This document shows positions 33,401-53,837 of a DNA stretch of 64,000 nt, in pieces. This stretch comes from Cafeteria roenbergensis. Taxonomy: Eukaryota > Sar > Bigyra > Bicosoecida > Cafeteriaceae. The stretch is taken from positions 434,001-498,000 of the forward strand of contig VLTN01000008.1 of the NCBI GenBank assembly GCA_008330645.1. The letters are read 5' to 3'. Made by a program: the position numbers and the translations under genes. The notes beneath the pieces are model-generated. The model was not told the origin of the DNA and did not search any database. It saw only the letters and a program-made list of their open reading frames with translations. Every line of letters starts with the position of its first letter. Within the stretch, counting starts at the first letter, position 1.

Positions 33401-35366
33401 CGTTCTCAAACTTGGCCGGCGCTCGTCTGGGTTTGCCATCATCTCCAAGGCGCTGGCCAAGTCCGCTTACGCGCTGTTCTTGACGTTCTTCTTTGTCTTC
33501 CTTGGGATCGTCCTCTTCGGCGCAATCATGTTCTATTCGGAGAGCGGTGAGTTCGACCAAGCCTCCGGACTTTGGCTGAGACCTGACACGACGGGAACTG
33601 GCGTGGAGGAGTCGCCATTTTCCTCAATCATGGCTGCTTTTTGGTTCTGGTGAGTTCCATTTGTCAGGCCTCCCGCGCAGCGACTTGTGTGTGGGGGGGG
33701 GGCGGGGAGGGATCTCGTTCGCCAGTGCCCACGCTTCCCCCCGCCCTCCCACGCCGTGCATTGCTCGATTCGTGACGCCGCTTTGTGTGCTCCCTGTTTG
33801 AAACTGCTTTCGAGCCTGCCGTTGCCCCGCAGCATCGTGACAGCCAGCACCACCGGGTACGGAGACTTGGTACCGACGGGCCTGATCGGCAAGGTCGTTG
33901 CTTCGTGCCTGCAGATTGCTGGCATCATCGTGCTCGCGCTGCCCATTAGCATCATCGGGAGCAATTTCACCACGGTTTACCGCGAGTTCGAGGGCCTGCG
34001 CGGGTGGATGCGCATGGGCTACTCCAAGGAGCAAGCCAAGCAGCTGGTCTTGGCTGGCCACTTCCCGGAGGACGTCGCTCCGGGGGCGATCGCCGCTGCG
34101 GAGGGCGAGTATGATGGTGGGCATGTGCACCAGGGAGCGCTGGGGCTCGCGTACGACGGATACCCTGCCATTGCTGCGTCCCCATCCGTGGGTTCGTGGA
34201 GCCAGCCGCTGTCTCCGTTCCCCGGCCACCCTTTCGAGCTCGTGAAGCAGAGCAACCAGGCTGACTCGTGGGAGCAAGCAGATGGTGCCATGTCAGCCGC
34301 GTCGTCTGGCCGCCGAGACTTCTGGGAGTCGCAGCCGGTAAGCGTGCAGTCAGAAGGCGCGCAGTTCATGCAGCCCGGGGCTTGCATCAGCGAGCGCAGC
34401 GACGACGACGACGACGAAGACGCTGCGAGCCGTGGCGAGCTGGCGTCGGGTCAAGTTTCCCGGAGGCAGCGAGCAGGCGCGGCGGGAGAGGAGCCTGCGC
34501 AGTCGGGGTGGGACACAGGATCGCACAACCTGCCCGCGCCCACGGCAACGCTCGCGACAATTTCGGAGGCTGCCTCCAGCCCCAGCGGCCTGGAGTCCCT
34601 TGGTCGAGGGCCGGCCTCTGGAGACGGCAGCACGGCTGGCTCGGCCAAGGGCTCTCCAGGGACGTCAGAGCCGCACGATGATGCCATGGCCGACAGCGAT
34701 GAGGAGCCAGGCAGCGAAGGCTTGGGCCAGGCGACGACCAGGCCGGAGAGCCCCCAACGCGGGCCGCCAGCTCCCACGGAGGCTTCGCCTGGGAGTGGCG
34801 GCGACATCACTCAGGTGTCAGACGTTACAGACCTTGATTCGCTGTCCAGTCACGACGGCGCAAGCGTCCGTTCCAGCGGTAGCCGAGCGACTCCGCAAGC
34901 GCCACGGCGCGCCGAAGCCTCAAGCCTGCACAACCGCAAGACGAGCCTTCCGGAAATCGACACGCGCGACGCCGACGAGCGTGGCCCCCGCGCCGGCCCG
35001 TGGTGCGAGCCTTCCGTGGCGACCCCTGGGGCGTCCAGCGAGGGCCTCGCGCCGCGCAGGTACTCGCTGCTCTCCGGCTTCTCGGTGCCACGGGCCGGGC
35101 CCCGAGCCCGGCCTCAGGGCAGATTGCCCCCTCCGCCCCCGGCATCCCCGTCCCCGCGCCTTCGCTCGGGCACTGAGTTCCCGTCCATGAACTTCTCAGG
35201 CCAAGCTGGCAAGGGCCCCTCCGAGCGCCATCGGTCTCGGGCGTCCGATTCGGCCGACTCCCCTTCCATCGCCGAGCTCCTGGCAAGGATCAGCTCTCAG
35301 GAGGCGCAACTGCAGGAAATGCATGCGACACTCCGGAGTGTGCTCGCTGCTGTGCGACGGGGCTGA
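30417..35366 (+). CDS. Voltage-gated potassium channel (2 exons, about 1,588 aa)
   Basis: Exon 1 is 30417-33649 and exon 2 is 33833-35366. The 183-nt intron is phase 2 (ctg|gtgagt ... gcag|c) and falls inside the pore loop; splicing yields AAFWFCIVTASTTGYGD with the K+ selectivity filter TTGYGD at residues 1084-1089. Membrane segments: S1 about 628-647, S2 666-688, S3 942-970, S4 981-1003 (VLRVLRVARVLRVLKLGRR, a basic residue at every third position), S5 1017-1041, S6 about 1095-1125. The S2-S3 linker is about 250 residues, far longer than usual, and ends in a segment with eight cysteines (FTCCWGWC, LLCSCC, PPCC) just before S3. The first 600 residues are Ala/Ser/Pro-rich and disordered. The C-tail is acidic, lacks a cyclic-nucleotide or ankyrin domain that I can see, and ends in a short helix suited to coiled-coil assembly. 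It should form a plasma-membrane tetramer opening on depolarisation. Subfamily is uncertain. Confidence 0.9.
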
Positions 35367-35636: not shown

Positions 35637-38600
35637 CTAGTTTGCCTGCACGTCGGGAGACAGGGCGACGTCGCTTGCCGACAGCACGTGCTCGGCCGCG
35701 GCCTGAGACTCGAGGCCGGCCGCAGTGTTGCCGGCGCTCCCCCCTCGCGTCTCACGGAACCACATGCTGCCGCCCGTGGCAGGAGACACTGGCGGCAGCG
35801 TCATGGGTCTACCCAGGGGGCCGGGAGCAGGCCAAACGAGCTCTGGGTAGTCGCTCATACGCTTGTCGATCGGGGTGATGTCGCCAGACACGTGCCGCGG
35901 CGCAGGCTTCCGCGACGGCCACGGCTTGAAACCGGAGTCGGACTTCCCGGTGGGCTTTTTGTGGCCCTTGTGTGACCCTCCGCCGCCGTCGTCGTGATCG
36001 TCGCCGGGCGGTGTGTATTTCCCAAGCCCAACGCCGTTGTCCTGCGCTGGCACGGGCGGCCCCCCAGAGGGGTTTGGAGACGGGGGCCTCGGGCGAGAGA
36101 CCCTGATGCGGTGAGGTGCGTGGGGGACCTCCACAGTGGCGGTCCCGACGAGGCGGCGCCGCAGCAGCTGCTCCGAGAGTCGGGTAACCTCTGCCGCGTC
36201 CTCCGCGCTGAGCCAGAACGCAGCGTAAGCTCCTGCTCCCGCAGTCTGCTTCCAGGCGTCGCGCCACAGCACGACGGACTCCTCCACGACGGTGGAATCT
36301 TCCTTGGTACCTTCAGTGGCGGCCTGGTAGCGCTCTCCGCCAAACGCAGCGTCGACTTCAATTTGCTCGACGGCCTCTTGCAGCACTTGCGCGTCGGTTG
36401 GAGGCGGGTCGAAGAACCCGGCCACTTGGTTCCTCACAGCGCCTGCCACTGACGAGATGACGCCCGGGTTATGCAGAAGCGGGTCCGCGTCGGCCGCGCC
36501 AAACGCGCGCTTGAGGGCGGCGCCCACGTTGCCGCTGTGCTTCCGCTGCGCCTCACGATGGCGGTGCTCCTCCATTGTATGCCGCAGGCTCTCGTGCCTC
36601 CCTTCGGCAATCGTCTCTGCGTCGAGGTCGCGCAGAAGGGCCTTGGAGGTTTCTGATAGCTTGTGAAGCGTGACCGCCCGCGTGTCCGTGCTCGGCACCG
36701 TCGCTCCTTCGAGCACAGCCATGACCTCTTTTGCCGAACTCGCCGTCCTGAAGCCCTGGCTGGGGGCCCGCGAGCGGCCGCCCACGACGTCGTTGAGCTG
36801 CCCCGGCGCCTTTGTCGCCAGCGTGCCGAACTCAAACGCCCGCAGTGGCCAAATGACTCCCTGCTGGCTGCGAGTCGCTGCCAGCTGCTGCCGCCGCTCC
36901 TCGGCGTGTTCCAGGTCTGCGTCGGGCGGCAGCTCAATGCCCATGCGCGAGAGCCCCTCAGAGTGCTCTGTGAGGATCCTTGCGACCTCGGGGTCGCTTC
37001 TGTCGGCTTGGAGTTCTGCCACAGCCCTGTCTAGCGCGGCCTTGGCTGTGTCTAGGCGTGCCTCAGCAGCCTCGACCTCGGCCGCCAAGGATGAAACTCT
37101 GCCCTCCGCCTCTGTCTTTGCGATCTCGAGCTGGCCGACTTCATCGGCTTCCACAGCTTCGCGTGCCTGTACACGGCTTTCCGCCTCTGTCAAGGCGGTC
37201 CGGGCAGCGGCAGCGTCCTGCCCCTCCTCGCTCTGAGGGTCGACTGAGCCGTCGGGCCTGCCCAAGGCATGTTCCGCATTTTCAGCCACCCTTCGAGCCG
37301 CGTCGCGCAATTCCTGGAGGACTCCCAGCTCTGGCGACGGACGGCGCGCAGCGACGAGCGCCGCCGTAGCCCGTTCCAGCACCTCAGCCGCGTCCTGAAG
37401 AGATTGCTTGGCATCGACGACCTCACGCTCCGCGGCCCTCGTCGCGGTCCAGCAAGTGCGGAACTGTGCGACGCTGGGAAGCGCGCTCGTGCTCGAACCT
37501 TCCTGGCCGGACTCTTCGCTGCCGCCCCCGCTCGCGTCTTCGTTGGCCTCCTCATCCACGTCCCCGCTGCCGTCCCCGCCCGTGTCTTCGTTGGCCTCCT
37601 CATCCACGTCCCCGCTGCCGTCCCCGCCCGTGTCTTCGTTGGCCTCCTCATTCACGTCCCCGCTGCCGTCCCCGCCCGTGTCTTCGTTGGCCTCCGCATT
37701 CACGTCCCCGCTGCCGTCCCCGCCCGTGTCTTCGTTGGCCTCCACATTCACGTCCTCGCTGCCGCCCCCGCCCGTGTCTTCGTTGGCCTCCTCATTCACG
37801 TCCCCGCTGCCGTCCCCGCCCGTGTCTTCGTTGGCCTCCACATTCACGTCCTCGCTGCCGCCCCCGCTCGTGCCTTGGGCAGGAGTTCCGCTTGCCTCGT
37901 GGACGGGTTCCTCGTCCTCCTCCTCCTCCTCCAGAGCAGCAGCATCAGCCGATGAGCGCGAAAGCGCGAAGCGCGGGTGATGGTGGCGATCACGCAGGGC
38001 ATGGATGCGGTGCGTCGCGCCCCGTGCGCGCGAGGAGGCGACGCTGCCAGCAGACTCTGACGGCGCAAGTGACGCAAGTGAGTCCGTGGAGCGCGCCCTC
38101 TTGCGCCATGCGCGGCCAGCATGTGCCGCTGCCCTCCCCGCGCTGCCTGCTTGGACCTGGGTGAAGACGAACAAGTCCATTGCGTCGTCCGCGCCCGACC
38201 CCCCCATGCGCGCACCGACTGCCTCCAGCAGCTCATGGGACTGGCGGGCTGGGCGACTATCGGTCAGGACTGCGGGTCGCTGAGCCTGGAACCGAGGCTC
38301 CGAGGCTGCCAGCTGAGCAGTGGCAACCGCAGCGCACGGGACAGCCGCGCCCTCGAGGCCCAGGCCTGACTGCTCGCCAGATCCGAACAACTGCGTTACC
38401 TTGGAGGCAAGGCTGTCAACGGCGACGGTGTTCTTAAAGGCCACAGGCACGCGAGTCCGCCTCAGCATGTCGGTCGAGCTGGTTGCAGCTGCAAACCAGG
38501 CCACTTCGTCCGAGGCTGGCGCCCAAGGCGGCCGTGAGGCACCGACGCGCGATGCCGGCACCACAACGTCCTGGGGCGGCCGCTGCTCAGCGAGCCCGAG

Positions 38601-41600
38601 AGTCGAGAACAGCGTTGACAGCGACCCGGCCTGCATGTGCGCCATGGCGCTGGGAAGCAAACGAACAGGCATGGTGCCGAACTCGGGAGTTGCGGTCGGC
38701 GCGAAGGCGCATCCCAAGCCATCGGACGCGGGAGCATCGGGGGCATGCAGGGCAAGAACGATGGCGCGAGTAGCCTCAGTGGCGCCACTGCTGTCGACAT
38801 GGGGCTGGCCGGTCAGCCGGTCCAAACCCGAGGCGGGCGACGAGCAGGCCAACACTGCGACGCAAACGAGCTCCACACTCCGGGCGTCTCCTCGCGCCGA
38901 GAGCGGCGGCGCCACAGCCCCAGAGCGCCAAGTCGCTGCAAAGTTGATGTCCACATGAGCGAGCCAGCCTTGTCCGAGATGTGCCGGCTCCAGGGTGCGG
39001 GCCGGCCCAGGGGCGCCAACGGCAGCGCAAGACGCGTGCAGCAGGGAGCCTGGGCAGGTGGGCTCCACGGCGGCTGCCTTCTGGGCAACTTGTGTAACTG
39101 CCGCCGCTGGCGGAGTGGGAGAGCGCGCAGCAGGGCTGGCCTCAACTGGCGCGGTCGGCGGAGCTGCGGCTGGTGATGCGGCCAAGTGGCTCGCCGCCGC
39201 AACCGGCTTGCCAGCTTCGCGCTGCTCGTCAATGAACTGGACCTGAGGCATAGCGTTGAGGTGTAGCTGACCGTGCCCAGAGCGGCTGCGCTGGGAGAAG
39301 CGCATGGGGCGCTCACCCTCCGGCGACGGCAGCCGGCACCCAGCAGGGCTGCTTCCAATGCCTGTTACTCCGTACGACACGCAGGCGAACGCCAAGAACA
39401 GCGGCGACGCTTGCTTGACCACCCTGCTCCCCTTGACCACCTCGGGGGACGCAGGCTCCATCCTTGCATCCAGCCAGGAAGACGAGTAAAAGGGAAAGTA
39501 GCCGTACGCCTCAACAGCTGCTGACGAGCCAAGCGGTGTGAAGGCAGTCGTCGTTTCGAAGCCGCCATGGGCGCTTGATGCAACCGAGAGACGGCTGCCC
39601 AGGTGATCACTGAGCACTTGAGCCTGTGGCTTGAAGAACATCGTTGTCACATAGCTCCCTGTGTTCGCAGTGCAGTGGAAATCGGCCATGTTGAGCCCGA
39701 AGCGGCGAGGCTTCTCGGCGAGCCCGTCAATTTCCTTGCGCTTTGGCAGCTTTGTCCACTGCTCGGCCGCCGATCCATAGATGTGAGCCACCAGGAAACT
39801 GTCCGCGTCGCCACTACCAGCGCTGCACCCTGCCATGACCACGCACACGGGAGCGAAAGGCGTGAAGTACTCCGCCTCCTGGCCATTCCGCCGCCCGGAC
39901 ACGCTGTTTTGGTGAGCGCCCCGCTGAGGCATGAGCTGCGCCTGCAGAGCCAGCGCCCCTGCTCGCTGGTCTCCCTTCAGAAGAACCCGGTTCACGCACA
40001 TGCTCCAGCGGGACTTCACCTTGGTTGCAGATGCAAGCTGATCAACAGCCTGAGTGCGGAGCGCGTCCGCCAGGTTGACGGCCCAAAACTTGCGCCCGAC
40101 GTCCTTCGGGTCGCCGTCGCTGGTCATGCAGCCGACAATCTTACTCCCGGACATCACAGTGCCCGCCTGCAGATCAACGGAGAAGGAAGTGCCCAACTGC
40201 CGACTGCTGACGGCCTGTTTCCAGTCGTTCAGGGTGCGCTTCCGCGTCCACTCCTTGCCCAGGTCGATGCTGAGGTCGTACCTGGCCAAAAGGTCCGCAA
40301 GCTTGACCTTGGGGACGGAGGCACCCACGCTCGCTGGATCTTGCCCCGTCAATGCCGCGGGGTCCGCGAACATCTTTGCGTCACGCATCTCGTGCCGGCT
40401 GACACGCAACGCCAGCAGAGACCCTGAGCCCTTGTTGTACTCGTGTCCCGGCATTTCGACGCCATGCATGTCCGCAGGGCACCCGCCTGGGTCGGGAACG
40501 ACCGGATCAACGACCTTGGGCGGGAAAAGGAACCCCAAGGGGATCCATGGCTTGCACTTGCGAGGCATGCGCTGGCTTGCGTCGTTCGGGTCGACGGGCG
40601 CGAGAGCGCTCGTGATTCCCGCGTAGAGGCGATCAAGACCGCGGTGGGCAAGCACGGACCAGTCGGAATCGCTGGCTGACCCTTGCGTTGCTGCCCGCAG
40701 CTCCACAGCCGTGCGCCGGCCTCCAATCACGGCGGTGATCGACAGGGACTCGGTTGCTCCGTCCTCGTCGACGTTCAATGCGGCCGACGCCACGGGGATT
40801 GCCCCAGCAAACACCGCGTCGTCAGTGTCGCAGTACTCCGCGTCCGGCAGGCCGTACCGCAGCCGAACTCCGTACACGTGCAAGATCGCAACTGAGTCCT
40901 GGTGGTAGTGGCAGGCGGATACCACCATGCAAGCAAGATGATCGCTGGTCCGGGGGAGCTTGGGAACGGCATCCATCACGAACTCGCCGTCAACGTCCAC
41001 TTCCGTCGACGTGAGCTTCTCGAGGTTCTTGACGAGCCCAAAGTCCCGTGACGCAAGAAGCCTTGCAGCCGAGCCACGCAGGTCGACGAGTACTCCCTTG
41101 CTTGAAGACGGACCCTCGCCGCGCCGCGCAGAGAAGCTCGGAGGCGTTTTCAGAGCCGGGTTGTCGAATGGCGAGACGACGAGGTGCCGGCCGTCATAGT
41201 ACGGGTCCAGGCTCTTGTCTTGAGCTGACAAGCAAAGATCGCAAGCCGCAGTGGTTGCGCTGGACTCAAAGTCCGTGCCATGCGATTGGTATGTCTCGAT
41301 GACCTTGGCTGGAGGGACGTTCGAGCCGCAGATGGCCACGGCGTTCTCGTCCGTTGGGAACCAGCCAGAGGGTAGTTGCAGGCCGGACGACCCGTCAATG
41401 TCGATGATGGTCCGCAACGCATCGAGCAATCGCTCGGCGCCAATATCCACGCGCGCGTTCCAGAGCCGCGCCTCCTTTGACTTGGAGTTCATGTACGGAA
41501 GGAAGCCCATTTCGCCACCTTTGATGTGGATCAGCTGCTGGCCCTTGAGGGTGCCCCGGGCGTTGAAGTCGCGCATAAGACGCTCCGTTGCGCGCTGCGT

Positions 41601-44600
41601 TCCGGTCAAGCCTCTGGCATACTCGCGGTGCGCGTTTGCGGAGGCCTGGCAATACGCTGGGTCGAGGCGACTCGGGATGGTGCGCAGCGGCTCCTCCACG
41701 GTGAACAGGTGGAAGCGGCTCGCGGCCTCTCCCTTGCCGTAAAGCTTGTCTGCCTTCAAGCAGGCAGAGACTGCCATGCACACTAGGCCGCTGCTGTCCG
41801 AGGGGGAGTCGCCAATGACGACCAGGATTCCCGTCGACTCGTCTGAATGACCGGGGTTGAAGCCGGGCAGGAAGTAATGGGCCTGCTTGCCGTCGGCTTC
41901 GCAGGTCGAGCAGGAGGCGTACTCCTCGTCTTTGAACCAGGGAGTGCCAGGCAGCACGGCGCGACCGGAGCAGAGCAGCTGCTCGCTCTCGAACGCAGAC
42001 TTCGCGTCGGTCCCGGACTGCAGCTTGGACACCAAGGCATGGGCTTCCGAGACTGCACCAAGAATGGTGGCCAAAGCGTCGTGCGAGGCCTTGAGCCACG
42101 ACGCTCCTGTCGTGCTGGACTCGGCCACGCCGCGAGTCGCGGCTTCGAGCACCAGGTGCGCGTCCTTACCCCCTGCCACCACGAGCGTGATCGCGTCCTT
42201 GGCTTGCGAGCCGCGAATGGCCTCAGTCGCCTTCACATCAATCGGCACGACGCCCAAGAGGCGCTCTGCCGGGGCGTGGCACCCAAGAGGCCAGCCGAGG
42301 TGGTTGCGGGGACGCGAAAAGAACCGAGCCATGGCAGTGACCGACGCCGTCCCAGAAGCCTTGTCGCCGTTGTCGAGGCAAGCGGACACCACAACGCACA
42401 CCAGCGACGGCGTGGCGTGCTCAGGGAACGCGATGGGCCCCAGATCGGGGACTTCGGATCCGAAGCGGACGGGCTCCGAGTCCGGGTCTCGCTCAAGCGC
42501 GGCAGTTGGGATCAGAGCATGCAGCTCGCTGTCCGCGGCGACGGAGACGAGCATGCCACGACCGGCCTTCGCGCCTTCCGCTGGGAACTCGGAGAGCGCC
42601 ACCTGCGCGGTTGGCCCCTCTGACTCGCACACTCCGCACGCCTCCGCGAGCGCCCCCTTCCACTCGAGGACAGTCCCGGAGCTTGCAAGCTCTTCGCCGT
42701 ACAGGCGCTCGTCCGCCTCGTGACTTGACTTCTCCAGGTTGCTCGGGCAGGCGAGAGGCGGCGGGACGCTGTCGCTGCCCAGGCCGTCCGCCGATACCGG
42801 CCTCACGTCGTCGCCGTCCAGAATCCCCGCGACGCTGTCCGTGAGTCTGCGTGCAGCTGCTGCCACAAGCGCGTTCCAGTCCGCCGCCGACCCGGCCATG
42901 TCATCATTCGATCGCCAGGGCAGCAAGTAGGACCCGAGCACTGGCGTGTGCTGCCCACGGGCGGCTTGTTCCAGGGATTCGTGGAATGAGGCCGCGAATG
43001 GGAGCTTCGTCGTCGCCACGTACGAGTCCTTCTTGATCTTGCACGCGTTGGGCTGACCAGTCGAGCGGCCGAAGCTGCCAGCTTCGGCAATGGCGAACTC
43101 GTGGACGAGCAGCGTCGCCGTGGCAGCGAGCTCCTCGGCGTCGAAGCGCATGCAGAGCGACAGACCAACGCACACAAGCGCCTCTGGGTCGCCCTCCTTC
43201 CCGAGGGCGACGCCGTATTCCCCGTCGTCGCTGATGTCGAGCAAGTGGTGGGACACCTTCTCAACGCCGCTGGGCTGGCAGGCCGAGCAAACGGCATCCG
43301 GGTCCCACCACTTGCCGCCCTCCGCGTCGCCGGCCCCCGCTAGCTCGTTGAGGGGGCAGCGGCTTGGGCCAAGCTCCAATACATCGGATGTCGTCCCAAG
43401 AGACACAGTCGTGCCCTCCGGCAACGCGGAGCTCTCCTCGACGCCGAAGGCTGCCGCGAGACGGGCCAGGCCGCGCACGCACAGGTCAAACCAGCGAGGC
43501 TCGCTCGGATGCTCCGACTCCAGCGCAGGCGTTGTGCCCCGAAGTGGTGCGAGCAGGTCGACGGGCACGTGCGCACTTCCAGAGCTCACGAACCCCACGT
43601 GCAGGCTCTGCGCGTGTAGCGCCCGGCCGCTTGTGCGCGGGGACGCGGACACGCCAAGGAAGGACTCCTCAGAGACGCGGCAGTGCTCGGGGTCACCGAG
43701 CGGCTGCTTGGAGCCTCGCGCAAACCAGCGAAGCAGCACCATCTCCACAGGGGCGGCGTCGGCGCTTGCGGAGGTGTCTCGCTCCTCACAGATGCTGGCC
43801 ACAACGCAGAACAGGTCCGGCAGGTAGGAGCCAGTCTCCTCGCTGTGGCCGAGCAACTCGACGGCTTCCTTCAGGGACCCGAGCGTCAGGCCCTGCGTGT
43901 CGCCCATGGTGCTGAGAAGCGCCGAGCGCCAGTACGAAGGCGTGTGGTCCCCGCCGGCAGTGACCTCCTCTCCCTGAAGCAAAGAATGCGGGAGGATCGG
44001 AATGTCCCCCGCCCTGGCCCCGACGTCCACAAGGACGCCGCGCAAGGAGCGGCTGGCCGACGGCTTGGGCGCCTGGTGGCTGCCCAGTTGGGCGACGCCA
44101 AGCCTCACCATGCGGTCTTGCAGCGAGGGCAGCGACACGTCCCCCGAGAAGCCTGCCAGCTGGAGGTGCTTGGCTTGCAGCGAGCTCTCCCTGCCGGACA
44201 CGAAGAAGTTGCAAGCTCCGCAGGCTGCAAGTGCCGAGGACTCGGCCCAGTTGGCAGACTCCTCCGAGTCTGCCACTGCGGCCGGGACGATGTTTGACGG
44301 GCAGCCCTCTGGCGGGGCGGGGCTGTCAGAGGGGAGCCAGCCGGCTTCGCCGCCCTCCGAGCGCTCGCTCACTTGCTGGAGCGCCAGGCGGGCAGCTCTT
44401 GCGAGCTCTCGCAACTGCTCCGAGATGCCGTCGTTCCATGCCGTCCGCTCGCGCACGTTGCCGCGGCCGCGGAGGATCTTGTTGCCGGGCAGGACAAACG
44501 CCGGCCTGAGCGTGGCGCTGTCGGCATCGTCCTCGCGATTGTGGTCGGCTACACTCAGGCCCGGCAGCTCCCACAGGCCCTCCTCGTCCTCTGCCGGCTG

Positions 44601-47600
44601 GCCGTCCGCCATGGCCTCCAGCATCTCCACGCGACTCTCCTCCAGCGGCATGTCGAAGCGGAGGTCCTTCGAGGTCGAGGCCTTGATGCCAGCGAAGCGG
44701 AAGCCGAAGCCGCCGCTTTCGACCGAGCCGTGCCTGTCCTGAAGCCGGCGGCCGCCAGCCTGGAGAAGCGAGGCCTCCGAAGTGGGGAAGGAGTTGCACT
44801 TTTGGGGCCCGTGCTTGACTAGCGGGTCCAGCGATTGAATTGACAGCGTCGCCTGAAGGATGAGTTTGGCCGATCCAGGCTCGCCGCCGCTCGGCGCCGA
44901 TAGGCAGATGGTGGGGATCATGCACACACTGTGCCTCTCTTCGCCCACTGTGGCATGCATGAGGACCCCGGCGAGGGACTCCTCTGACAGTGGCACGTGC
45001 ATGGTGTACGCCCCCTCCATGCCCTCGATCTCGATTCCGTCTTCAGACCCCGCGCCGGGAGTGCAAACGCTGCACATGTCCGATGCTGAACGCTGAATTA
45101 CCTCAGAGGAAATACCGGCTGGGGACCGGCAGACCCCAGGGCTCGGGGGTGCTGCTACCTCACCGTCCAGCACCGAGCTGTCTTGGGCGGCTTCCCCCAA
45201 AGCGTCGAAAACTCGCTTCAGCCCCCGGAACGCTGCGTTGTACCAGCCGTTGCCAGGCGCGTCCCCTTGGGTCGCGGCTGAGAACGTCACAGTTGCGCCT
45301 CCCGGAGCGGACGCAGTGAAGGAAGGCGTCGCCGCCTCGCCCAGAGCCTCGGGTGCGCTTGTGATGGCCATCAGGCCAATGAACGCCTCCGGATTGGTCG
45401 TGCAGCTCTCTGGGTCTCCCAGGCCCTCTCCGTACAGGTGCTTGAAAAGGTGCACGATGCCAATGGCCTTCTCGTTCTGGCCATCGGCGGCCTCCGCGCA
45501 CCTCGTGACAGCCACGCAGAAGAGCCCGGGCGCGGCCTTGTCCGCCCCTGATCCGTCGGCATGCGAAACGGAGTGCAGCGTCGCGGCCCCCTGCTCGATT
45601 CGCAGGTCCAACAACGCCGGCAGCATGGCCACATCGTCCCAGTCCTCTGGCTTCAGCACCACGGAAGCGCTGGCGTCGCTTGGCCCGGCGTCGATGTGGA
45701 CAAGCGCGCCGCCACCTTGTTTGTGAGCGTGCTCCGTCGAGACGATGTCGCTGCCTCCCAGCGGGGCGGACAACGAGTCGCCAGGCTGGGGCCTGTCGTC
45801 GCAAGCCACGTGTTCCATCAAACGACCGCTTCGGAACGTCCCGACTTCCATGTGCGCCATTCGAGGGTTGCTGGGCGTCACGTCGTCGATTTTGGCCAGC
45901 TCCGGCCAGCAGGCGTGGCACCCCGCTGTGCGGCGTTTGCTCCACCATGAGGTTTCCGCTGGCTGCGGTGCGCCCCGGTCGGGGCAGTGCAGGTTGGCCG
46001 AGCACGACATCGGAGGCAGAGGGGCGGCGGCCGGCAGCGGCGGCACGTGGGAGATCACTCGATCCGCCAGGGCTGCAAGCCAGCTCATGGCTTGTTCAGC
46101 ATCTTCCGTCACGTGCGCACACGCTTCGGGTACCTCGCCGTCGGTGCCAAAGCACTGCTTGGGGTTGGCCAGGGTCATCTCCACCGTGTTGGAGCTGCCC
46201 TCTTCCAGCATTTGGTCCACCTTCAGGGACACGGAGGTGCTCGCGATCGAGCCGACGTTGGTGATGCGCATCAAGCCCAGGAAATCCGCAGGCGCCGCTT
46301 TGCACCTGGCGACCTTGAAGTCCGCAGGCGGTGTTCGGTCCACCGAGAACACGTGAGCAAGCAGCACCGGCGACGTTGAGTGCTTGGCGATGGCGCTGGC
46401 CGAAGCCGGTGCGCAGGCAGTGAAGAGCATGCAAACGGTCACCGAGTCAGACGCGGCTGCCTGGAGAAGAGACACCGCCTCGTCCGTGACTTGCTGCTGC
46501 TGCTGCTGCTCCTGCTGCTCATCGCCGACTGTGTCCTGGCCCTCGGCCGTGTGCTGCTGCTGCGGCGACTGCGCCTCTTGGCTGCCAGTGCTGGACGCGT
46601 CGCGCTCCGCGGGCCTCTCCTCTTCGTCCCCGTCCGGCTGCTCGGTGCTCTGAGACGGGCTGTGCAGGGCTGCCAGCCGATCGGCAAGCGTCCCCGTCTC
46701 GTGGGCAGGCTCGAACGGGCTGCCGCGGCCGTGACTCAGGTCAAGAGTCGCCGAGCCAGGGAGGCTGACCATGGCTCCATGGCCGTACTGGTTGCTGCCG
46801 GGCTGCCCGTCACGAGAGCCCATCTGCTCGTGGTGGGGCTCGCCATAGTGCGCGAAGTCGCTGGACTCGCAGAACTGGCAGGCAGCTGAGAAGGGGGAAT
46901 CGTCATTGGGGAAGCCCTCCCATCCCGGCGGCGGGGGCGACTGGGACGGGCACATAGCGGGTGGGGGCTGCAGGGCGATGGGAGCGGACCCCTCGGCCAT
47001 CAAGGCACCCCGCAGGCGCTTGTAAGCCTTGCCTGCCAGGTCCGCCCAGCTGTCGCCTCCTTCGCACGCAGCCTGCTCGGAAAGAGGGACTCTGAAGTGG
47101 ACGTGCTGCACTCGCGAAATGGTTGCCTCCGACTCGGGAAGCACCGTTGGGACGGCAAACGTCAGAAGGCCGTCCTCCAGGTCCTCGAGAGCCTCTGGCA
47201 AGCGCTGCCCCGGCTTCGTGACGGGCAGCGACGCCGCAAAGTGTGCGGGATCGGCGACGCACTTGTCGGGCACTCCCACGAGGGGAAGGCCGGGCTCGCC
47301 CGCCAGCTTGAACAGGTGCAGGATCGGCACTCTGCGCAACTCCGGGGCATCGAACTGGGGGTTGCGCAAGGGGCTCCCGCTTGACATGTGCTCCTCGTGG
47401 TCAGCCTGTGCGGAAGAGCACATGGTGACGATGGCGCAGTACATGGTGGTTGGTGCCAGCTCACTGAGCTCAACCACTGCCTCCGCGCCCTGCAGCGCAG
47501 GCATGCCCACGAGCGGCGGCCGGCCTTCGTGCGCGCCCATAGCGAGCAGCCGGGACAGACCCGCCGCCGCGGGCCCTTGGAGCATCACACCGTACGAGCC

Positions 47601-50600
47601 GATGGCCTCGCCGTTGACCACCTGGGGCTCGAACTGCTCCAGGACGTGGTGCGCCATTGCCTGAGCGCGCGAGCACAAGTCGCAGCCGACGTTGACCGCC
47701 GTGCCGGGCGCATCCCAGTTGGCCGGATCCAGGGGAGGCAGCTCCCAGACGTTGCACATGCATGCCTCAGGAGGAGCGGGCTCGAGCAAGCGAAGTTCGG
47801 CCTCGAGGGCCTGCTTCAGGCTGTCGCTCAGCCGCTGCTTGCCGGCCTCGACGAGCTCCTTCGCCCACTCCGCCTCCGTCTGGACGCCCTCTCCCGGGCT
47901 GCCGCCCTTGGAGAGCAGCGGGGGCGGGATCTTCATCGACACTGGTCGGATGAAGATGTTGCTCTCCGCCGCCACAGGCACCTGGAGCTCAAGGATGTCC
48001 TCGGTCGCCCACTTGCGAAGCGCGCCTTGCACCCGAGGCAGCGGGACATCTTCCAGCCCAGTCTTGAGCAGGATGGGAATGACGCCTTGGAACGAGCCCT
48101 TGGTGATTTCGCACCGGTCTGGAAGGACCTGCGTGCTGGAGCGGAGCGACTCGGCGAACCCGTCCGACTCGGCCCTCTGCTTGGCCGACTTGCCCGTGGC
48201 GAAGACGTGAAGGAGCGCGACGCGAGCGTGCTTGCCGAAGGTAGCGGCCATGAGCCCGTCGTGCGCAGCGGCTGAGCACGCGGAGGCTGTGACACACATT
48301 GTTGCGTCGACGTCCAGGCGCGCGCGATGCTCCTTCTTGAGCGGAATGAGAGGCACGCCGCGCTGGGGGCAATGCTGGTCGTCGTGCTCTGGCTCGTGGG
48401 CGAGGCCCGCGACCAGGCGGACCATGCAATCTGCGTCGCTGCCGATGCGGCTTGGAGGGACGAGGTCAGCGCCCTCGGGGAAGTTGACGACCACCCCGGT
48501 GGCCTCCTCCCCCTCGCCCGCCGAGAACAGCTCCAAGTGGTGATGACTCGCACCCCCGAACGGGTTGCACAGTCCGCAGGCAGCCGAGGGCTGCTCGGCT
48601 GCCCATGGCAGATTCTCGGAAGTGGGCGGGATCTCCACGGACGGCAGCGGAGGCGGGCGCCACGCTGGGCCACGAACGGCTCGCAGCACGCGGCCAACCA
48701 GCTTCACCGTCTTCGCGTCTTCTGGGAAAGCCTCCAGATCGTTGGCCAGCGGCTCGTCCGTGTCGAGGCCACGCATGAGCGTCTCTGACGTGGCCTTGGC
48801 AATGAGGTCGGCGCGGTGCTGCGCCTGTTCGTCGCTGAAGGCTGTGCTGGTCTCGGCAAAGGCATCGAGGCCCTCGTCGGCGCGATGCAACGGAACCAGG
48901 CCAAAGTCAGCGTCCAGAGCAAAAGTGCCGAGGATGCTGTCCACGTCCTCCTCGTTGAGCTCAGCGGGGCATGCCAGCGCGTCCTCGGTCTTGACCGACT
49001 TGCTGAGCCTCACGACAAGGCGGTACGTGCGAGGGTGAAGGGTGTTCAGCTCAACGGGCGTGGGGCGCTCCAAGAACGCCGGGGAGCTTGCGAATCTCTG
49101 AACGATGCCGTGGAAGTCAATGGGAGTCGTTTTCCTGGGCATGTTGGCCAAGAAGCCCTTCCCATCATTCCGAGACGCACCCGAGGCCAGCTGCAGCAGC
49201 GACGAAGGGTGCTCCGCATCCTCGTCTTCCTCGGAGTCCTGCGTCTCCTGGTCGAGCCCGTGCCCGCTGTCGTCGCCGCTCGGGTGAAGCGGAGAGCCGA
49301 GCACGCCTCGGATGCAAATGGCAAACTCGGCGCAAACGGTTTCGTCTGAGAAGTCGGTCATCCGCCTGGCAAAAGCGATCGGATCCAGCTGCGAGGTCAC
49401 GCTCGCCGCAACTCGAGCCAGCACACGAAGCGCCCTTCCGTCGGAAGTCGGGACGCGCACGAGCTCGCCGTCGTGGCACCCCATGGTGCTGGGTGAGGTC
49501 ACAGGCAACGCGGTGTTGAGAGCAGGCCGACGCGTGCTCGCCTCGTCCTGCTGCGTCTCTTGCACCTCCGAGTCGCCGCTGCCCTGAGCTTGGGAGGAGG
49601 GAGCTTCATCCTCGCTGTCGCTGACCTGCGAGCCAGAGCTCTCGTCGTCGCCGTCCTCTCTCCGGCGACGCCGACGGCCGGGACGCACAGCAGCTCCACG
49701 GCCGCCCCTCTGCAGCAGCGACCTGGGCGGGGCCTCCGATGACAGACCCTGGGCGACCTCGTCGTCCGTGTTGTCTTCGTCCTCGAGGCCGCTGACATCG
49801 ACGCCATCTTCGTCAACGTCCTGCGTGGGCTGACCATGGCCTTGAGAAGACACGCCGCCGCTCTCGATGGCGCGGCAGACTCCGTGGGGCTGGATTGCTG
49901 GGCTGCCACCAACGTCCTTGGCCAGTTGGGCTGCTCTGGACAGGGCTTCGATTGCGTGCTTGCGCACAAGCTCGCAGTTGGTGTCGGTCAGAGTGCACCT
50001 GCCGCCGATGCGGACCACCTGGTGGCCTGCAGTCCTGGATTGCCGCAGAGCAGTGGCCTCGGACACCCCGAGAAGCGCTGCCCCGTCGAAGAGAACTCGC
50101 TTCCCGCTCTCGTCCAGGTTGTCGCCCAGGCTCGGCCACCGGAGGGGCAGCGAAACCAACCCCGAGCGCGACGACATGGACAGGGCGTGCGATGTCGATT
50201 GCCCGTTGGAGGCCAGCTCCCAGATGTCGTCGGCCATGACTGCCGACGACTTGCTCGCCTGAACTGTGAGGTCCAGCTTCACCTCGCCAAAACGCGGCGC
50301 CGACCGTGCCGTCACCCCGCTGTCGTCCTTGGGGGAGCAGAAGACTGCCTCGGCTGCCTGAGTGCGCGTGGACATCCCAGCAAAGTCCGGCGAGGCGCTT
50401 TCGGTTGGCAAGACTTCGAAGAGCCGCAGCCTTACAGAGTGATCCTCGCCGCAAATGTAAGGCACCGCGCACACCGACTGCATGAACAGAGGCAGCGCCC
50501 CCTCTCCGCTCTTGAACGAGGCGGACAGATCGAGCGACATGCGGATGCCGGACAGGCCAGCGTCGGCGAGCGGCTGGGCAGCGTCGTAGACCGCGCCCGA

Positions 50601-53282
50601 GCAGAGCGCCCCGCACTCCTGCGCTGACGCGATGTCGTCCAGCGGGGCAGCCAGTGGGCACACGAAGACGCGCCCCGCAGTGCCCTTGGCAGTTTGCGCT
50701 TGGGTCAGCTGCTTGTCACCTTTGTGCTGGATTCCAAGCACCTTCTTCAGCTCCTCTTCCCACTCCTTCTGTTCGCGTCGATCCACGCCTTGGATTGACG
50801 TCCTGACTGTGCGTTCGACAGCAGCGCGGTCAATCGTCGGCTCTGCGTCGGGGTGCTCCGAAATGAGCCGGTCCAGTGCGGAGAAGACGAGTCTGTTGAT
50901 CCGGTCCTCAAGCCTTACGTCCTGACCCTTGATGATCATTCCGTTGAGCGCTTGAACCTTCGAGGTCAAGTCCTCCGAGGGCGAGGCCGCGCTTTCGAGC
51001 AGTCGGGCAAAGTCTGCCTCCGCCTGGGACACACCCGCTGCCTTGATGGCCGCAAACCGCTTCTTCGCAGGGCCGTGGTGGCAGGTGTAGGCTGCTCGAC
51101 TGGCCTGCAGCATGACCTGCATGGAGGTCCCCAACTCGGGGCCATCGCCTTCCGGTTGCAGTGCGTCGATTGCTGCAATTGCCGTCTGGACGTCGGGGCA
51201 CTGCACCGAGTCGCCGCTGTTGACTTCCTCGCCCAGCTTCGCGAGCTCGCTCTTGGCAGCGGCGAGACGCTCGCTGATTCCCACCATCTTCTCGGCGACG
51301 ATGCTCTGCAAGTGAGTAGGCGTCGCTCGCTTCGGCGGCACGGCGGAAGGCCCGTACTCTCGGCGGGTTGCGTCCCCCCTCGCCGTCTTGATCACCAGAG
51401 CAATGCCAGAGGGCTCCGGCGCGATGCTGCCCTCCGCTGCGGGAGGCGGAAACACAGCTCTCCCCGGCAGCGCTTGCTCGAGCAAAGCGGCTGCGTCCCG
51501 GACGACGTCCAAGTCGATTCGCTCCTCGCTGCCAAATGCCTTGAGCACGCTCGCCAGCCGATGGTCGACCTCCGCCTGCTCTTCCCGCTCTCCCAGGATT
51601 GACAGCATATTGCTGGCGTGCGCGTCGTCGCCGCGAAGTCCTGACACGGGCATCATTACCTGGGCGATTGTGCGCAGCCACTCCGGGTACTCGCTCGCCC
51701 CCTCGACCTCCTCCAGTAGCGCCGCCAACGGCGCGGCCTTGCCGTCTCCGTGCTCGCCCTCGGCGATGGAGTGAATTTCGGCGGCCAGGCTCTGTGCCTG
51801 GTCGATCCATGCTGCCAGGCCCTTGACTGGTTGGGCGAGGCTGACCGAGTGGTCGCCCTTTCCAAGGCGGCAGGGCTGGGACTCGTCCTCCGGGCACTTG
51901 GCCGCAGGATCCGAGAGGAGAAGGGCATGCCGGTCGGCATCCCGCGGAACGCAGCGCTGCAGGCCGCCAAGGCAGTAGACGCTGTCGGACTGCCCCCCGC
52001 ACTCCGCTTCCTGCCCGTCTCCGCCCCCCTGAGATCCAGCCACAGGCCCTGTGCCGTGCGATCCAGCCTGTTCGGGGGGCGTCATGTCCGCGACCACGCG
52101 CGAGGAAGTTTTGAAGTCGCTGGTGTAGCTGAAGAGCAGCTCGGGCTCCGAGCGGACGCTCAGTGTGGCGGGCATGGCAATGGACACCCAGCCGCACACC
52201 TGACTCTGGGAGCCGTCGGTGCCAACGACCTTCACAACGAGCCCGGGCTGTGCCACGACCCCAGGGTCCAGCCGCAGGGGCGATTGGCTCTCGTCCACCG
52301 CCAGCTCGACGTCCGCGCTGCGCTCCTGGCTCTCGCGCCCCTGGGACGAGTCGGACTGCGGGCTTCCAACATCGCTGCCCTCGCTGGTGCCGCTCCCCCT
52401 CCCACCGTCTCCACTCGTGGCATCTCCTTCGTCGTCAGTCCCACCCTCGCTGCTGGAATCCAGGCTCCCATCCTCTTGACCGTCCTGGGACTGGGGCGGC
52501 AGAGGGCCGGTTGAGCCGTCGGACACCTGGCTTTCGTTCTGCTCGTCTTGGTCGCCAGTGGACCCGCTGTCGGGGTCCAGCGGGCGCCTCCTGCGGCCCG
52601 CCTGCGCCTGCAGAAGGCTCTCTTCGCCGGAACCACTCTCGCCGTCTGCGCTTTCCCCTGCCTGCTCGCCGCGGACGTCCGCCTCTTGCTGTGGAGGCAG
52701 CAGCCCCACCGAGACTAGCTGCCTCAGCTGCACTTTTGCGGTCCCGGCAAGCCGCATGGCAATGTCCCACGACCCATCTCGGTCGTGGTCCTCCCTTGGG
52801 CTTGCTGGCGTCGCCTGGCCGACGGCAGCCGGAGGGGGAATGCGCACGACCAGCATTCCAAGCTCGGCCTCCTTGCAATTGCCCACGACGGCCGGAGCCT
52901 CCCCAAACTCGTCCTTCATGTGCTGGGCAAACTTGGCGCCCTGGCCAATCCTGACGATGGGCCCGGCATACTCCTCCATTTGCGTCACGGGTAGACCCTG
53001 CATAGGCGCGGAGGAATCAGGGTCGCTCGGGAGCAACACCACGAGGTGGAGCGAAGCAGCGGACATGCAAGAGACCAGGGCACGACAAGGTAGCCGAGTG
53101 AGGACCTTTTCCGTCGCAACGCGGGCAGACTGCTCGCGGAGGCAGGGGCGCGGCCCCGAGCCTGTGCCAAAGCTCGTTCGGCGACCTCGCTCTTGCGCCC
53201 TCACCCGCTCCGCGACCGCCGTCGCCGCCAGAAACGCAGCCACAGCAGCGAGTGCCGCCATGAGAACGCCGCGGCCTGACAT
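35637..53282 (-). CDS. Giant secreted Cys-rich modular protein, 5,881 aa, family not recognised
   Basis: One uninterrupted frame starts at ATG 53282. The N-terminus is a typical signal peptide (hydrophobic Ala/Leu/Val core to about residue 24), and I see no convincing transmembrane helix later, so the product is probably secreted or wall-associated. The body holds 15 copies of a C-x5-C motif, roughly C-[VMA]-x-x-[ST]-x-C, as in CVVVSAC, CMAVSAC, CVTASAC, CMLFTAC and CVAVTRC. Their first cysteines lie near 53087, 50471, 49338, 48299, 47443, 46438, 45522, 44926, 43811, 43175, 42402, 41783, 40933, 39846 and 38870. Most are preceded by a CxxC (ACGVC, ACDLC, VCSAC) and followed by a V-x-H-[LV]-F strand and a lone Cys, which defines modules of about 200-380 residues. 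The C-terminal sixth has a 16-residue acidic repeat, a coiled coil near 36900-37480 and a Pro/Gly-rich end. The family and function are unknown; a surface or matrix protein is my inference. Confidence 0.85.
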   Translation of the reverse strand: MSGRGVLMAALAAVAAFLAATAVAERVRAQERGRRTSFGTGSGPRPCLREQSARVATEKVLTRLPCRALVSCMSAASLHLVVLLPSDPDSSAPMQGLPVTQMEEYAGPIVRIGQGAKFAQHMKDEFGEAPAVVGNCKEAELGMLVVRIPPPAAVGQATPASPREDHDRDGSWDIAMRLAGTAKVQLRQLVSVGLLPPQQEADVRGEQAGESADGESGSGEESLLQAQAGRRRRPLDPDSGSTGDQDEQNESQVSDGSTGPLPPQSQDGQEDGSLDSSSEGGTDDEGDATSGDGGRGSGTSEGSDVGSPQSDSSQGRESQERSADVELAVDESQSPLRLDPGVVAQPGLVVKVVGTDGSQSQVCGWVSIAMPATLSVRSEPELLFSYTSDFKTSSRVVADMTPPEQAGSHGTGPVAGSQGGGDGQEAECGGQSDSVYCLGGLQRCVPRDADRHALLLSDPAAKCPEDESQPCRLGKGDHSVSLAQPVKGLAAWIDQAQSLAAEIHSIAEGEHGDGKAAPLAALLEEVEGASEYPEWLRTIAQVMMPVSGLRGDDAHASNMLSILGEREEQAEVDHRLASVLKAFGSEERIDLDVVRDAAALLEQALPGRAVFPPPAAEGSIAPEPSGIALVIKTARGDATRREYGPSAVPPKRATPTHLQSIVAEKMVGISERLAAAKSELAKLGEEVNSGDSVQCPDVQTAIAAIDALQPEGDGPELGTSMQVMLQASRAAYTCHHGPAKKRFAAIKAAGVSQAEADFARLLESAASPSEDLTSKVQALNGMIIKGQDVRLEDRINRLVFSALDRLISEHPDAEPTIDRAAVERTVRTSIQGVDRREQKEWEEELKKVLGIQHKGDKQLTQAQTAKGTAGRVFVCPLAAPLDDIASAQECGALCSGAVYDAAQPLADAGLSGIRMSLDLSASFKSGEGALPLFMQSVCAVPYICGEDHSVRLRLFEVLPTESASPDFAGMSTRTQAAEAVFCSPKDDSGVTARSAPRFGEVKLDLTVQASKSSAVMADDIWELASNGQSTSHALSMSSRSGLVSLPLRWPSLGDNLDESGKRVLFDGAALLGVSEATALRQSRTAGHQVVRIGGRCTLTDTNCELVRKHAIEALSRAAQLAKDVGGSPAIQPHGVCRAIESGGVSSQGHGQPTQDVDEDGVDVSGLEDEDNTDDEVAQGLSSEAPPRSLLQRGGRGAAVRPGRRRRRREDGDDESSGSQVSDSEDEAPSSQAQGSGDSEVQETQQDEASTRRPALNTALPVTSPSTMGCHDGELVRVPTSDGRALRVLARVAASVTSQLDPIAFARRMTDFSDETVCAEFAICIRGVLGSPLHPSGDDSGHGLDQETQDSEEDEDAEHPSSLLQLASGASRNDGKGFLANMPRKTTPIDFHGIVQRFASSPAFLERPTPVELNTLHPRTYRLVVRLSKSVKTEDALACPAELNEEDVDSILGTFALDADFGLVPLHRADEGLDAFAETSTAFSDEQAQHRADLIAKATSETLMRGLDTDEPLANDLEAFPEDAKTVKLVGRVLRAVRGPAWRPPPLPSVEIPPTSENLPWAAEQPSAACGLCNPFGGASHHHLELFSAGEGEEATGVVVNFPEGADLVPPSRIGSDADCMVRLVAGLAHEPEHDDQHCPQRGVPLIPLKKEHRARLDVDATMCVTASACSAAAHDGLMAATFGKHARVALLHVFATGKSAKQRAESDGFAESLRSSTQVLPDRCEITKGSFQGVIPILLKTGLEDVPLPRVQGALRKWATEDILELQVPVAAESNIFIRPVSMKIPPPLLSKGGSPGEGVQTEAEWAKELVEAGKQRLSDSLKQALEAELRLLEPAPPEACMCNVWELPPLDPANWDAPGTAVNVGCDLCSRAQAMAHHVLEQFEPQVVNGEAIGSYGVMLQGPAAAGLSRLLAMGAHEGRPPLVGMPALQGAEAVVELSELAPTTMYCAIVTMCSSAQADHEEHMSSGSPLRNPQFDAPELRRVPILHLFKLAGEPGLPLVGVPDKCVADPAHFAASLPVTKPGQRLPEALEDLEDGLLTFAVPTVLPESEATISRVQHVHFRVPLSEQAACEGGDSWADLAGKAYKRLRGALMAEGSAPIALQPPPAMCPSQSPPPPGWEGFPNDDSPFSAACQFCESSDFAHYGEPHHEQMGSRDGQPGSNQYGHGAMVSLPGSATLDLSHGRGSPFEPAHETGTLADRLAALHSPSQSTEQPDGDEEERPAERDASSTGSQEAQSPQQQHTAEGQDTVGDEQQEQQQQQQVTDEAVSLLQAAASDSVTVCMLFTACAPASASAIAKHSTSPVLLAHVFSVDRTPPADFKVARCKAAPADFLGLMRITNVGSIASTSVSLKVDQMLEEGSSNTVEMTLANPKQCFGTDGEVPEACAHVTEDAEQAMSWLAALADRVISHVPPLPAAAPLPPMSCSANLHCPDRGAPQPAETSWWSKRRTAGCHACWPELAKIDDVTPSNPRMAHMEVGTFRSGRLMEHVACDDRPQPGDSLSAPLGGSDIVSTEHAHKQGGGALVHIDAGPSDASASVVLKPEDWDDVAMLPALLDLRIEQGAATLHSVSHADGSGADKAAPGLFCVAVTRCAEAADGQNEKAIGIVHLFKHLYGEGLGDPESCTTNPEAFIGLMAITSAPEALGEAATPSFTASAPGGATVTFSAATQGDAPGNGWYNAAFRGLKRVFDALGEAAQDSSVLDGEVAAPPSPGVCRSPAGISSEVIQRSASDMCSVCTPGAGSEDGIEIEGMEGAYTMHVPLSEESLAGVLMHATVGEERHSVCMIPTICLSAPSGGEPGSAKLILQATLSIQSLDPLVKHGPQKCNSFPTSEASLLQAGGRRLQDRHGSVESGGFGFRFAGIKASTSKDLRFDMPLEESRVEMLEAMADGQPAEDEEGLWELPGLSVADHNREDDADSATLRPAFVLPGNKILRGRGNVRERTAWNDGISEQLRELARAARLALQQVSERSEGGEAGWLPSDSPAPPEGCPSNIVPAAVADSEESANWAESSALAACGACNFFVSGRESSLQAKHLQLAGFSGDVSLPSLQDRMVRLGVAQLGSHQAPKPSASRSLRGVLVDVGARAGDIPILPHSLLQGEEVTAGGDHTPSYWRSALLSTMGDTQGLTLGSLKEAVELLGHSEETGSYLPDLFCVVASICEERDTSASADAAPVEMVLLRWFARGSKQPLGDPEHCRVSEESFLGVSASPRTSGRALHAQSLHVGFVSSGSAHVPVDLLAPLRGTTPALESEHPSEPRWFDLCVRGLARLAAAFGVEESSALPEGTTVSLGTTSDVLELGPSRCPLNELAGAGDAEGGKWWDPDAVCSACQPSGVEKVSHHLLDISDDGEYGVALGKEGDPEALVCVGLSLCMRFDAEELAATATLLVHEFAIAEAGSFGRSTGQPNACKIKKDSYVATTKLPFAASFHESLEQAARGQHTPVLGSYLLPWRSNDDMAGSAADWNALVAAAARRLTDSVAGILDGDDVRPVSADGLGSDSVPPPLACPSNLEKSSHEADERLYGEELASSGTVLEWKGALAEACGVCESEGPTAQVALSEFPAEGAKAGRGMLVSVAADSELHALIPTAALERDPDSEPVRFGSEVPDLGPIAFPEHATPSLVCVVVSACLDNGDKASGTASVTAMARFFSRPRNHLGWPLGCHAPAERLLGVVPIDVKATEAIRGSQAKDAITLVVAGGKDAHLVLEAATRGVAESSTTGASWLKASHDALATILGAVSEAHALVSKLQSGTDAKSAFESEQLLCSGRAVLPGTPWFKDEEYASCSTCEADGKQAHYFLPGFNPGHSDESTGILVVIGDSPSDSSGLVCMAVSACLKADKLYGKGEAASRFHLFTVEEPLRTIPSRLDPAYCQASANAHREYARGLTGTQRATERLMRDFNARGTLKGQQLIHIKGGEMGFLPYMNSKSKEARLWNARVDIGAERLLDALRTIIDIDGSSGLQLPSGWFPTDENAVAICGSNVPPAKVIETYQSHGTDFESSATTAACDLCLSAQDKSLDPYYDGRHLVVSPFDNPALKTPPSFSARRGEGPSSSKGVLVDLRGSAARLLASRDFGLVKNLEKLTSTEVDVDGEFVMDAVPKLPRTSDHLACMVVSACHYHQDSVAILHVYGVRLRYGLPDAEYCDTDDAVFAGAIPVASAALNVDEDGATESLSITAVIGGRRTAVELRAATQGSASDSDWSVLAHRGLDRLYAGITSALAPVDPNDASQRMPRKCKPWIPLGFLFPPKVVDPVVPDPGGCPADMHGVEMPGHEYNKGSGSLLALRVSRHEMRDAKMFADPAALTGQDPASVGASVPKVKLADLLARYDLSIDLGKEWTRKRTLNDWKQAVSSRQLGTSFSVDLQAGTVMSGSKIVGCMTSDGDPKDVGRKFWAVNLADALRTQAVDQLASATKVKSRWSMCVNRVLLKGDQRAGALALQAQLMPQRGAHQNSVSGRRNGQEAEYFTPFAPVCVVMAGCSAGSGDADSFLVAHIYGSAAEQWTKLPKRKEIDGLAEKPRRFGLNMADFHCTANTGSYVTTMFFKPQAQVLSDHLGSRLSVASSAHGGFETTTAFTPLGSSAAVEAYGYFPFYSSSWLDARMEPASPEVVKGSRVVKQASPLFLAFACVSYGVTGIGSSPAGCRLPSPEGERPMRFSQRSRSGHGQLHLNAMPQVQFIDEQREAGKPVAAASHLAASPAAAPPTAPVEASPAARSPTPPAAAVTQVAQKAAAVEPTCPGSLLHASCAAVGAPGPARTLEPAHLGQGWLAHVDINFAATWRSGAVAPPLSARGDARSVELVCVAVLACSSPASGLDRLTGQPHVDSSGATEATRAIVLALHAPDAPASDGLGCAFAPTATPEFGTMPVRLLPSAMAHMQAGSLSTLFSTLGLAEQRPPQDVVVPASRVGASRPPWAPASDEVAWFAAATSSTDMLRRTRVPVAFKNTVAVDSLASKVTQLFGSGEQSGLGLEGAAVPCAAVATAQLAASEPRFQAQRPAVLTDSRPARQSHELLEAVGARMGGSGADDAMDLFVFTQVQAGSAGRAAAHAGRAWRKRARSTDSLASLAPSESAGSVASSRARGATHRIHALRDRHHHPRFALSRSSADAAALEEEEEDEEPVHEASGTPAQGTSGGGSEDVNVEANEDTGGDGSGDVNEEANEDTGGGGSEDVNVEANEDTGGDGSGDVNAEANEDTGGDGSGDVNEEANEDTGGDGSGDVDEEANEDTGGDGSGDVDEEANEDASGGGSEESGQEGSSTSALPSVAQFRTCWTATRAAEREVVDAKQSLQDAAEVLERATAALVAARRPSPELGVLQELRDAARRVAENAEHALGRPDGSVDPQSEEGQDAAAARTALTEAESRVQAREAVEADEVGQLEIAKTEAEGRVSSLAAEVEAAEARLDTAKAALDRAVAELQADRSDPEVARILTEHSEGLSRMGIELPPDADLEHAEERRQQLAATRSQQGVIWPLRAFEFGTLATKAPGQLNDVVGGRSRAPSQGFRTASSAKEVMAVLEGATVPSTDTRAVTLHKLSETSKALLRDLDAETIAEGRHESLRHTMEEHRHREAQRKHSGNVGAALKRAFGAADADPLLHNPGVISSVAGAVRNQVAGFFDPPPTDAQVLQEAVEQIEVDAAFGGERYQAATEGTKEDSTVVEESVVLWRDAWKQTAGAGAYAAFWLSAEDAAEVTRLSEQLLRRRLVGTATVEVPHAPHRIRVSRPRPPSPNPSGGPPVPAQDNGVGLGKYTPPGDDHDDGGGGSHKGHKKPTGKSDSGFKPWPSRKPAPRHVSGDITPIDKRMSDYPELVWPAPGPLGRPMTLPPVSPATGGSMWFRETRGGSAGNTAAGLESQAAAEHVLSASDVALSPDVQAN
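37514..37870. repeat. 48-bp tandem repeat (minisatellite) inside the giant secreted protein gene
   Basis: About seven in-frame units of 48 bp encode a 16-residue acidic block of the type GDGSGDVNEEANEDTG. Units alternate between GDGSGDVN and GGGSEDVN versions, and the two types are interleaved, which suggests duplication of two-unit blocks. The length preserves frame, so copy number can vary without breaking the gene. Confidence 0.95.
46491..46520. repeat. CTG/CAG triplet tract encoding polyglutamine
   Basis: A short interrupted CTG run on the plus strand is read on the minus strand as glutamine codons with one glutamate (QQEQQQQQQ) in a linker of the giant secreted protein, just before the CMLFTAC motif. 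Confidence 0.85.
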
Positions 53283-53830: not shown

Positions 53831-53837
53831 CTTCCTA

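Follow-up and report, generated by a model that had tools for sequence, protein, structure and literature searches.

Cysteine-rich modules strung together in a secreted precursor are familiar from the saposin-like proteins (SAPLIPs), in which the spacings CxxC and Cx5C occur, a middle cysteine pair lies between these two motifs, and each saposin domain spans about 80 residues. According to the excerpts of PMC11542183 used here, SAPLIP domains consist of four to five helices and mostly contain three disulfides. A second familiar kind is the giant chain of tandem domains, and 2 of the 20 10-kb stretches sampled from the present genome hold such frames, each open over the whole 10 kb and encoding tandem domains of often-extracellular types: TIG/IPT in the one (L037; 3-9998, minus strand), where near-identical repeat blocks are visible in the translation, and fn3 in the other (L032; 3-9998, minus strand). 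The locus described below resembles the SAPLIP precursors in its probable secretion, in having several cysteine modules in a row, and in the CxxC and Cx5C spacings, and differs from them in module size (about 215 profile positions as against the 80 or so residues of a saposin domain). Its modules also look partly beta by crude propensity, whereas SAPLIP domains are helical (PMC11542183, same excerpts). Like members of the giant tandem-domain class, the protein strings homologous domains together in one very long chain; the domains of L037 and L032, however, belong to known Pfam families.

The window, that is, the whole 64,000-nucleotide stretch of Cafeteria roenbergensis DNA analyzed, contains an ATG-initiated ORF of 5,881 residues (Table 1), as originally predicted; it lies on the minus strand, a point on which the prediction was silent. 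A primer from PMC6972860, designed for strain RCC970-E3, matches the genome once and its reversed control does not match at all, which supports the species assignment. GC content at codon positions 1, 2, and 3 is 0.69, 0.52, and 0.78, and position 2 has the lowest value in every one of the 30 blocks (200 codons each), so that the ORF can be read as a single coding frame; toward both ends, a few blocks show only a weak excess at GC3. On codon-position GC, the ORF reads as coding throughout its length, and the single exon of the original prediction is a putative one. As to the surroundings, a tRNA-Leu (CAG) gene is located at window positions 53750-53831 on the plus strand, about 470 bases upstream of the start of the giant gene, a 6,975-residue ORF with DUF3638, DUF3645, and SPRY domains (listed from a GTG) occupies positions 8835-29762 on the minus strand, and the neighboring ORFs at 30417-33653 (plus), 45-6104 (plus), and 58771-62778 (minus) give Ion_trans, EF-hand, and Amidase matches.

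The protein had been predicted to contain 15 C-x5-C motifs, mostly 0.6-1.2 kb apart, about ten of them preceded by a CxxC. A regular-expression search finds 16 Cx5C matches (mean 1.96, maximum 9 in 2000 shuffles), and the one at residue 2427 was judged coincidental, leaving 15 as module anchors. The gaps between them measure 594-1137 nt in 13 of 14 cases, the first being 2616 nt, and ten CxxC motifs are present, in m4-m13 (shuffle mean 2.01, maximum 8). The hydrophobic H-[LV]-F strand said to follow most Cx5C motifs proved less general than claimed: by eye, H[LV]F is found after 5 of the 15 and H-x-[FY] after 8.

Profile self-comparison shows that homology is shared by nine of these modules. 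In leave-one-out runs, with profiles trained on m4-m13 minus the tested module (m8 thus being in the training set) and 300 shuffled segments per run, m4-m7 and m9-m13 score 29.8-76.2 bits, compared with at most 7.0 bits for the best shuffle in each run. Module m15 reaches 14.6 bits (best shuffle 6.1), while m8 (5.5 bits; best shuffle 5.6), m14 (3.8 bits; 6.1), and m1, m2, and m3 (0.1, 0.0, and 0.7 bits) all remain at shuffle level. When aligned to the nine-module profile by hhalign and compared, module by module, with 30 full shuffles and a further 30 in which the cysteines were fixed, m14 (score 27.0) and m8 (20.5) exceed all shuffles, m15 (21.4) exceeds all full and 29 of the 30 Cys-fixed shuffles, and m1 and m2 fall within the shuffles; the hhalign score of m3 (28.1) was discounted, because the matched stretch is the start of m4, which had been included in the cut. 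The chain is therefore giant and modular as proposed, with nine certain modules among the "about 15" of the original prediction, weaker support for three more (m8, m14, and m15), and the cysteine pattern only for m1-m3.

The nine core modules lie within residues 1544-4223, joined by linkers of 8-26 residues except for the gap filled by m8; they sum to 2,262 residues, or 38% of the protein, a share that rises to about 53% when m8, m14, and m15 are added as cut. Long acidic low-complexity linkers and a tail with acidic repeats and a charged region are also found in the chain. The module signature reads C1, CxxC, HxxLxxF, GVLV, Cx5C, HxF, C6, FxG, Trp, in which five cysteines (CxxC, Cx5C, and C6) and the Trp are invariant in all nine, C1 and the His of HxxLxxF are each kept in eight, and the His of HxF is kept in seven; C3 and C4 lie anywhere between 36 and 146 residues apart. 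Averaging propensities across the nine, a crude measure, points to strands at GVLV, LVCVVVSA, and ALLHVFA, with FLG a less clear case, and to a helix following the Trp. Joint loss of cysteines was considered as a clue to their pairing, m1 and m3 having four cysteines and no CxxC, and was judged weak because m1 and m3 are not proven members of the family and m14 and m15 make no simple fit. Pairwise identity among the nine is 15-28% (mean 21.7%), and neighbors are no more alike than the rest (21.1%). The modules had on this account been called necessarily old, a claim that finds no support, as a single gene in a single genome is all that is seen of the family and fast divergence is equally possible.

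Table 1. Features of the giant ORF (window positions; residues are those of the encoded protein)
Feature	Position	Strand	Basis
Whole ORF, 5,881 aa, ATG start	35637..53282	minus	ORF listing and translation
Signal-peptide-like segment, residues 1-24	53211..53282	minus	hydropathy
m1, Cx5C unit, residues 47-136 (C47, C66, C72, C136; no CxxC)	52875..53144	minus	cysteine pattern only
m2, residues 870-1000, six Cys, CxxxC replaces CxxC	50283..50675	minus	cysteine pattern only
m3, residues 1255-1450, four Cys, no CxxC	48933..49520	minus	cysteine pattern only
m4, residues 1544-1822, without C1, two extra Cys	47817..48653	minus	profile
m5, residues 1837-2095	46998..47774	minus	profile
m6, residues 2106-2413	46044..46967	minus	profile
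m7, residues 2422-2695	45198..46019	minus	profile
m8 (derived), residues 2713-2985 (hand-set ends), all six Cys kept	44328..45146	minus	weak
m9, residues 2990-3278	43449..44315	minus	profile
m10, residues 3305-3485	42828..43370	minus	profile, matched as two stretches
m11, residues 3507-3745	42048..42764	minus	profile; best match to consensus in genome search
m12, residues 3767-3956	41415..41984	minus	profile
m13, residues 3981-4223	40614..41342	minus	profile
m14 (derived), residues 4263-4640 (hand-set ends), no CxxC	39363..40496	minus	weak
m15 (derived), residues 4740-4940 (hand-set ends), no CxxC	38463..39065	minus	14.6 bits leave-one-out; one of 30 Cys-fixed hhalign shuffles higher
Tandem repeat of 48 bp in 7.5 copies, encoding an acidic 16-residue unit of Gly/Asp/Glu	37517..37876	minus	sequence
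Charged Ala/Glu/Arg-rich region, possibly coiled-coil, about residues 5290-5450 (placed by eye)	36933..37415	minus	FliJ/SMC-like matches, all sub-threshold

The family was predicted to be an unrecognized one, and no match above chance was found among Pfam, NCBIfam, or PDB sequences. Judged by sequence, neither outcome that would have overturned this prediction, a lack of shared homology or a Pfam match, is seen for the nine core modules. Neither Pfam (searched with the protein in two overlapping halves and with ten modules) nor NCBIfam (two overlapping halves) gives a match above the curated cut-off; at E up to 1, Pfam returns two matches, both at chance level and both to the C-terminal half, and NCBIfam likewise yields two. 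PDB sequences show no match at E up to 10 to two profiles and one module. Searches of phages with m13 and m11 as queries, and a scan of viral contigs and prokaryote genomes for a few exact peptides, which would miss distant relatives, detected no relative. In the organism's own 36,303,456-base, 167-contig assembly, searched with introns not modeled, a consensus query run at E up to 10 gives 12 matches, two with E above 0.01; every one falls in the giant gene, and together they cover the nine core modules, not m8, m14, or m15; because the consensus was built from those nine, finding them again is no independent control. No second locus for the module is thus seen by the consensus query in the 36.3-Mb genome, where a paralog as diverged as m8 would be missed. 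Single-module queries recover one sister module (m13) or two (m7), and m5-m13 as one query and the first 1,544 residues each match only themselves; these queries were drawn from the chain up to m13. In the partial literature covered, on giant, secreted, and Cys-rich proteins of Cafeteria, mastigonemes, and extrusomes, no description of the protein was found.

Secreted repeat proteins of giant size are already familiar, and what may be new here, relative to Pfam, NCBIfam, and PDB sequences, is the domain itself. The module may instead adopt a known fold too diverged for detection by sequence, in which case nothing would be new at the fold level; we put this just short of an even chance, and it is compatible with any role. 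The profile was fed by only nine sequences at 15-28% identity and its sensitivity is therefore low, as this explanation would have it, but agreement below threshold is absent: when the ten modules are compared to Pfam at E up to 10, five unrelated families appear, each in one module. That the modules represent an undescribed fold stabilized by six cysteines, confined to a tandem array in a single gene of Cafeteria and related organisms and under selection against N-glycans, seems to us unlikely.

Hydropathy agrees with the predicted signal peptide: residues 6-24 form a hydrophobic stretch with a mean Kyte-Doolittle value of 2.42, the two 19-residue windows that rank next (1.78 and 1.72) are located on Cx5C strands, and no second segment of clear membrane strength is found in the protein. 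The protein has one NxS/T sequon in 94 Asn (shuffle mean 12.35; 0 of 2000 shuffles with one or fewer) and ten copies of the reversed motif, a test chosen post hoc, after looking at the sequence. The neighboring DUF3638 ORF (97 Asn) has 11 sequons versus 13.0 expected, and the other four neighboring ORFs, with 8-16 Asn each, are little informative. For a broader comparison, 64 ORFs from the 20 sampled stretches (200 kb on contigs C1-C3), some of them cut by the stretch ends and all chosen by a codon score trained on the giant gene and its DUF3638 neighbor, contain 133 sequons and 88 reversed motifs, of which the TIG-domain giant L037 contributes 46 (for 69 Asn) and 8. With L037 removed, the per-Asn sequon contrast remains (Fisher p 3.6e-5), and is weaker against the reversed motif (p 0.0095). 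Among the sampled ORFs, the three whose starts resemble signal peptides show no depletion (6 sequons versus 5 reversed motifs), and the eight with at least two membrane-like segments have 10 sequons versus 14 reversed motifs. Because the signal-like ORFs are undepleted and the TIG giant is sequon-rich, sequon avoidance is no general mark of secretion here. For the giant protein itself, the depletion together with the hydrophobic start supports, post hoc, a route through the ER on which N-glycans are selected against, and the protein is probably secreted.

Our best guess, held at somewhat less than even confidence, is that the giant protein has a putative role as a multivalent secreted scaffold or adhesin. 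A chain with signal peptide, acidic linkers, a Cys domain in nine clear copies and three weaker ones, and a charged tail would enter the secretory pathway; the six cysteines would be joined in disulfides stabilizing a domain of mixed alpha/beta type; and the module array, released or kept at the cell surface, would contact prey or substrate in this naked bacterivorous flagellate. We infer the adhesion role from this architecture; the TIG and fn3 open frames in the genome sample were counted toward it. In Cafeteria, named C. burkhardae in PMC7852580 and PMC8547959 (both seen as excerpts), genes upregulated in stationary phase are enriched in cell-adhesion domains including IPT (PMC7852580, excerpts), and the giant gene is not named in those excerpts. 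Against the adhesin reading, no known adhesion or ligand-binding domain is found in the protein; no membrane anchor is found either, which leaves surface retention without explanation.

The main rival role, which we consider unlikely, is that of a processed polyprotein, cleaved in its linkers into small disulfide domains that would act as food-vacuole effectors or antimicrobials, like protist prosaposin-type precursors. The row of core modules with short linkers and m8 in the one larger gap suits such a precursor, as do the CxxC and Cx5C spacings that recall saposin-like proteins. There is, however, no conserved cysteine between CxxC and Cx5C (two in m4, one in m7, and none in the other eight CxxC modules), and a Pfam search with the ten modules at E up to 10 returns neither SapB_1 nor SapB_2 (very weak matches may be lost to the HMMER filters), which counts against the saposin form of this reading. 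A possible processing or sorting motif is SLLQ, the most over-represented 4-mer outside the tandem repeat, which occurs 6 times versus 0.18 expected (Poisson 3.8e-8, post hoc) and accounts for all six LLQ; elsewhere it is rare, with 2 in the 50,766 aa of the 64 sampled ORFs (Fisher p 2.9e-5) and 1 in the five neighboring ORFs, in the amidase one. The six copies (residues 222, 1188, 1361, 2271, 2838, and 3100) lie mostly in acidic, low-complexity, or inserted stretches: two inside modules between CxxC and Cx5C (m6 and m9), one after C6 of m8, and three in or after the doubtful m1-m3. They are thus not placed at core-module borders, and the motif was picked after looking; nor is any of the eight runs of at least three basic residues found at such a border. 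SLLQ was also considered as the trace of in-frame introns, a translated polypyrimidine-CAG splice acceptor, and this was rejected because its codons vary and include G. Quite improbable, in our view, is a dense-core or matrix protein stored in the lumen of secretory granules or phagosomes and selected against packing-disturbing N-glycans, a reading in line with the near-absence of sequons, the acidic repeats and linkers, and the single clear membrane-strength segment, but for which no granule-specific motif or relative was identified, and the avoidance of sequons could have other causes or be a chance effect spotted in hindsight. The wall or scale role originally suggested finds no support, as another bicosoecid, whose posterior flagellum anchors the cell, is described as being without lorica or cell wall in excerpts of PMC6723347, a figure legend of which nonetheless mentions a smooth cell wall surface.

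C. burkhardae is a widespread marine bacterivore (PMC7852580, excerpts) and hosts a giant virus together with a virophage of that virus (PMC6972860 and PMC8547959, excerpts), and surface and secreted proteins have a bearing on how the cell attaches, feeds, and comes into contact with viruses. Modular ORFs of giant size are in themselves no rarity in this genome; a repeat domain that is unrecognized and seen in a single giant gene offers structural work a clean target.
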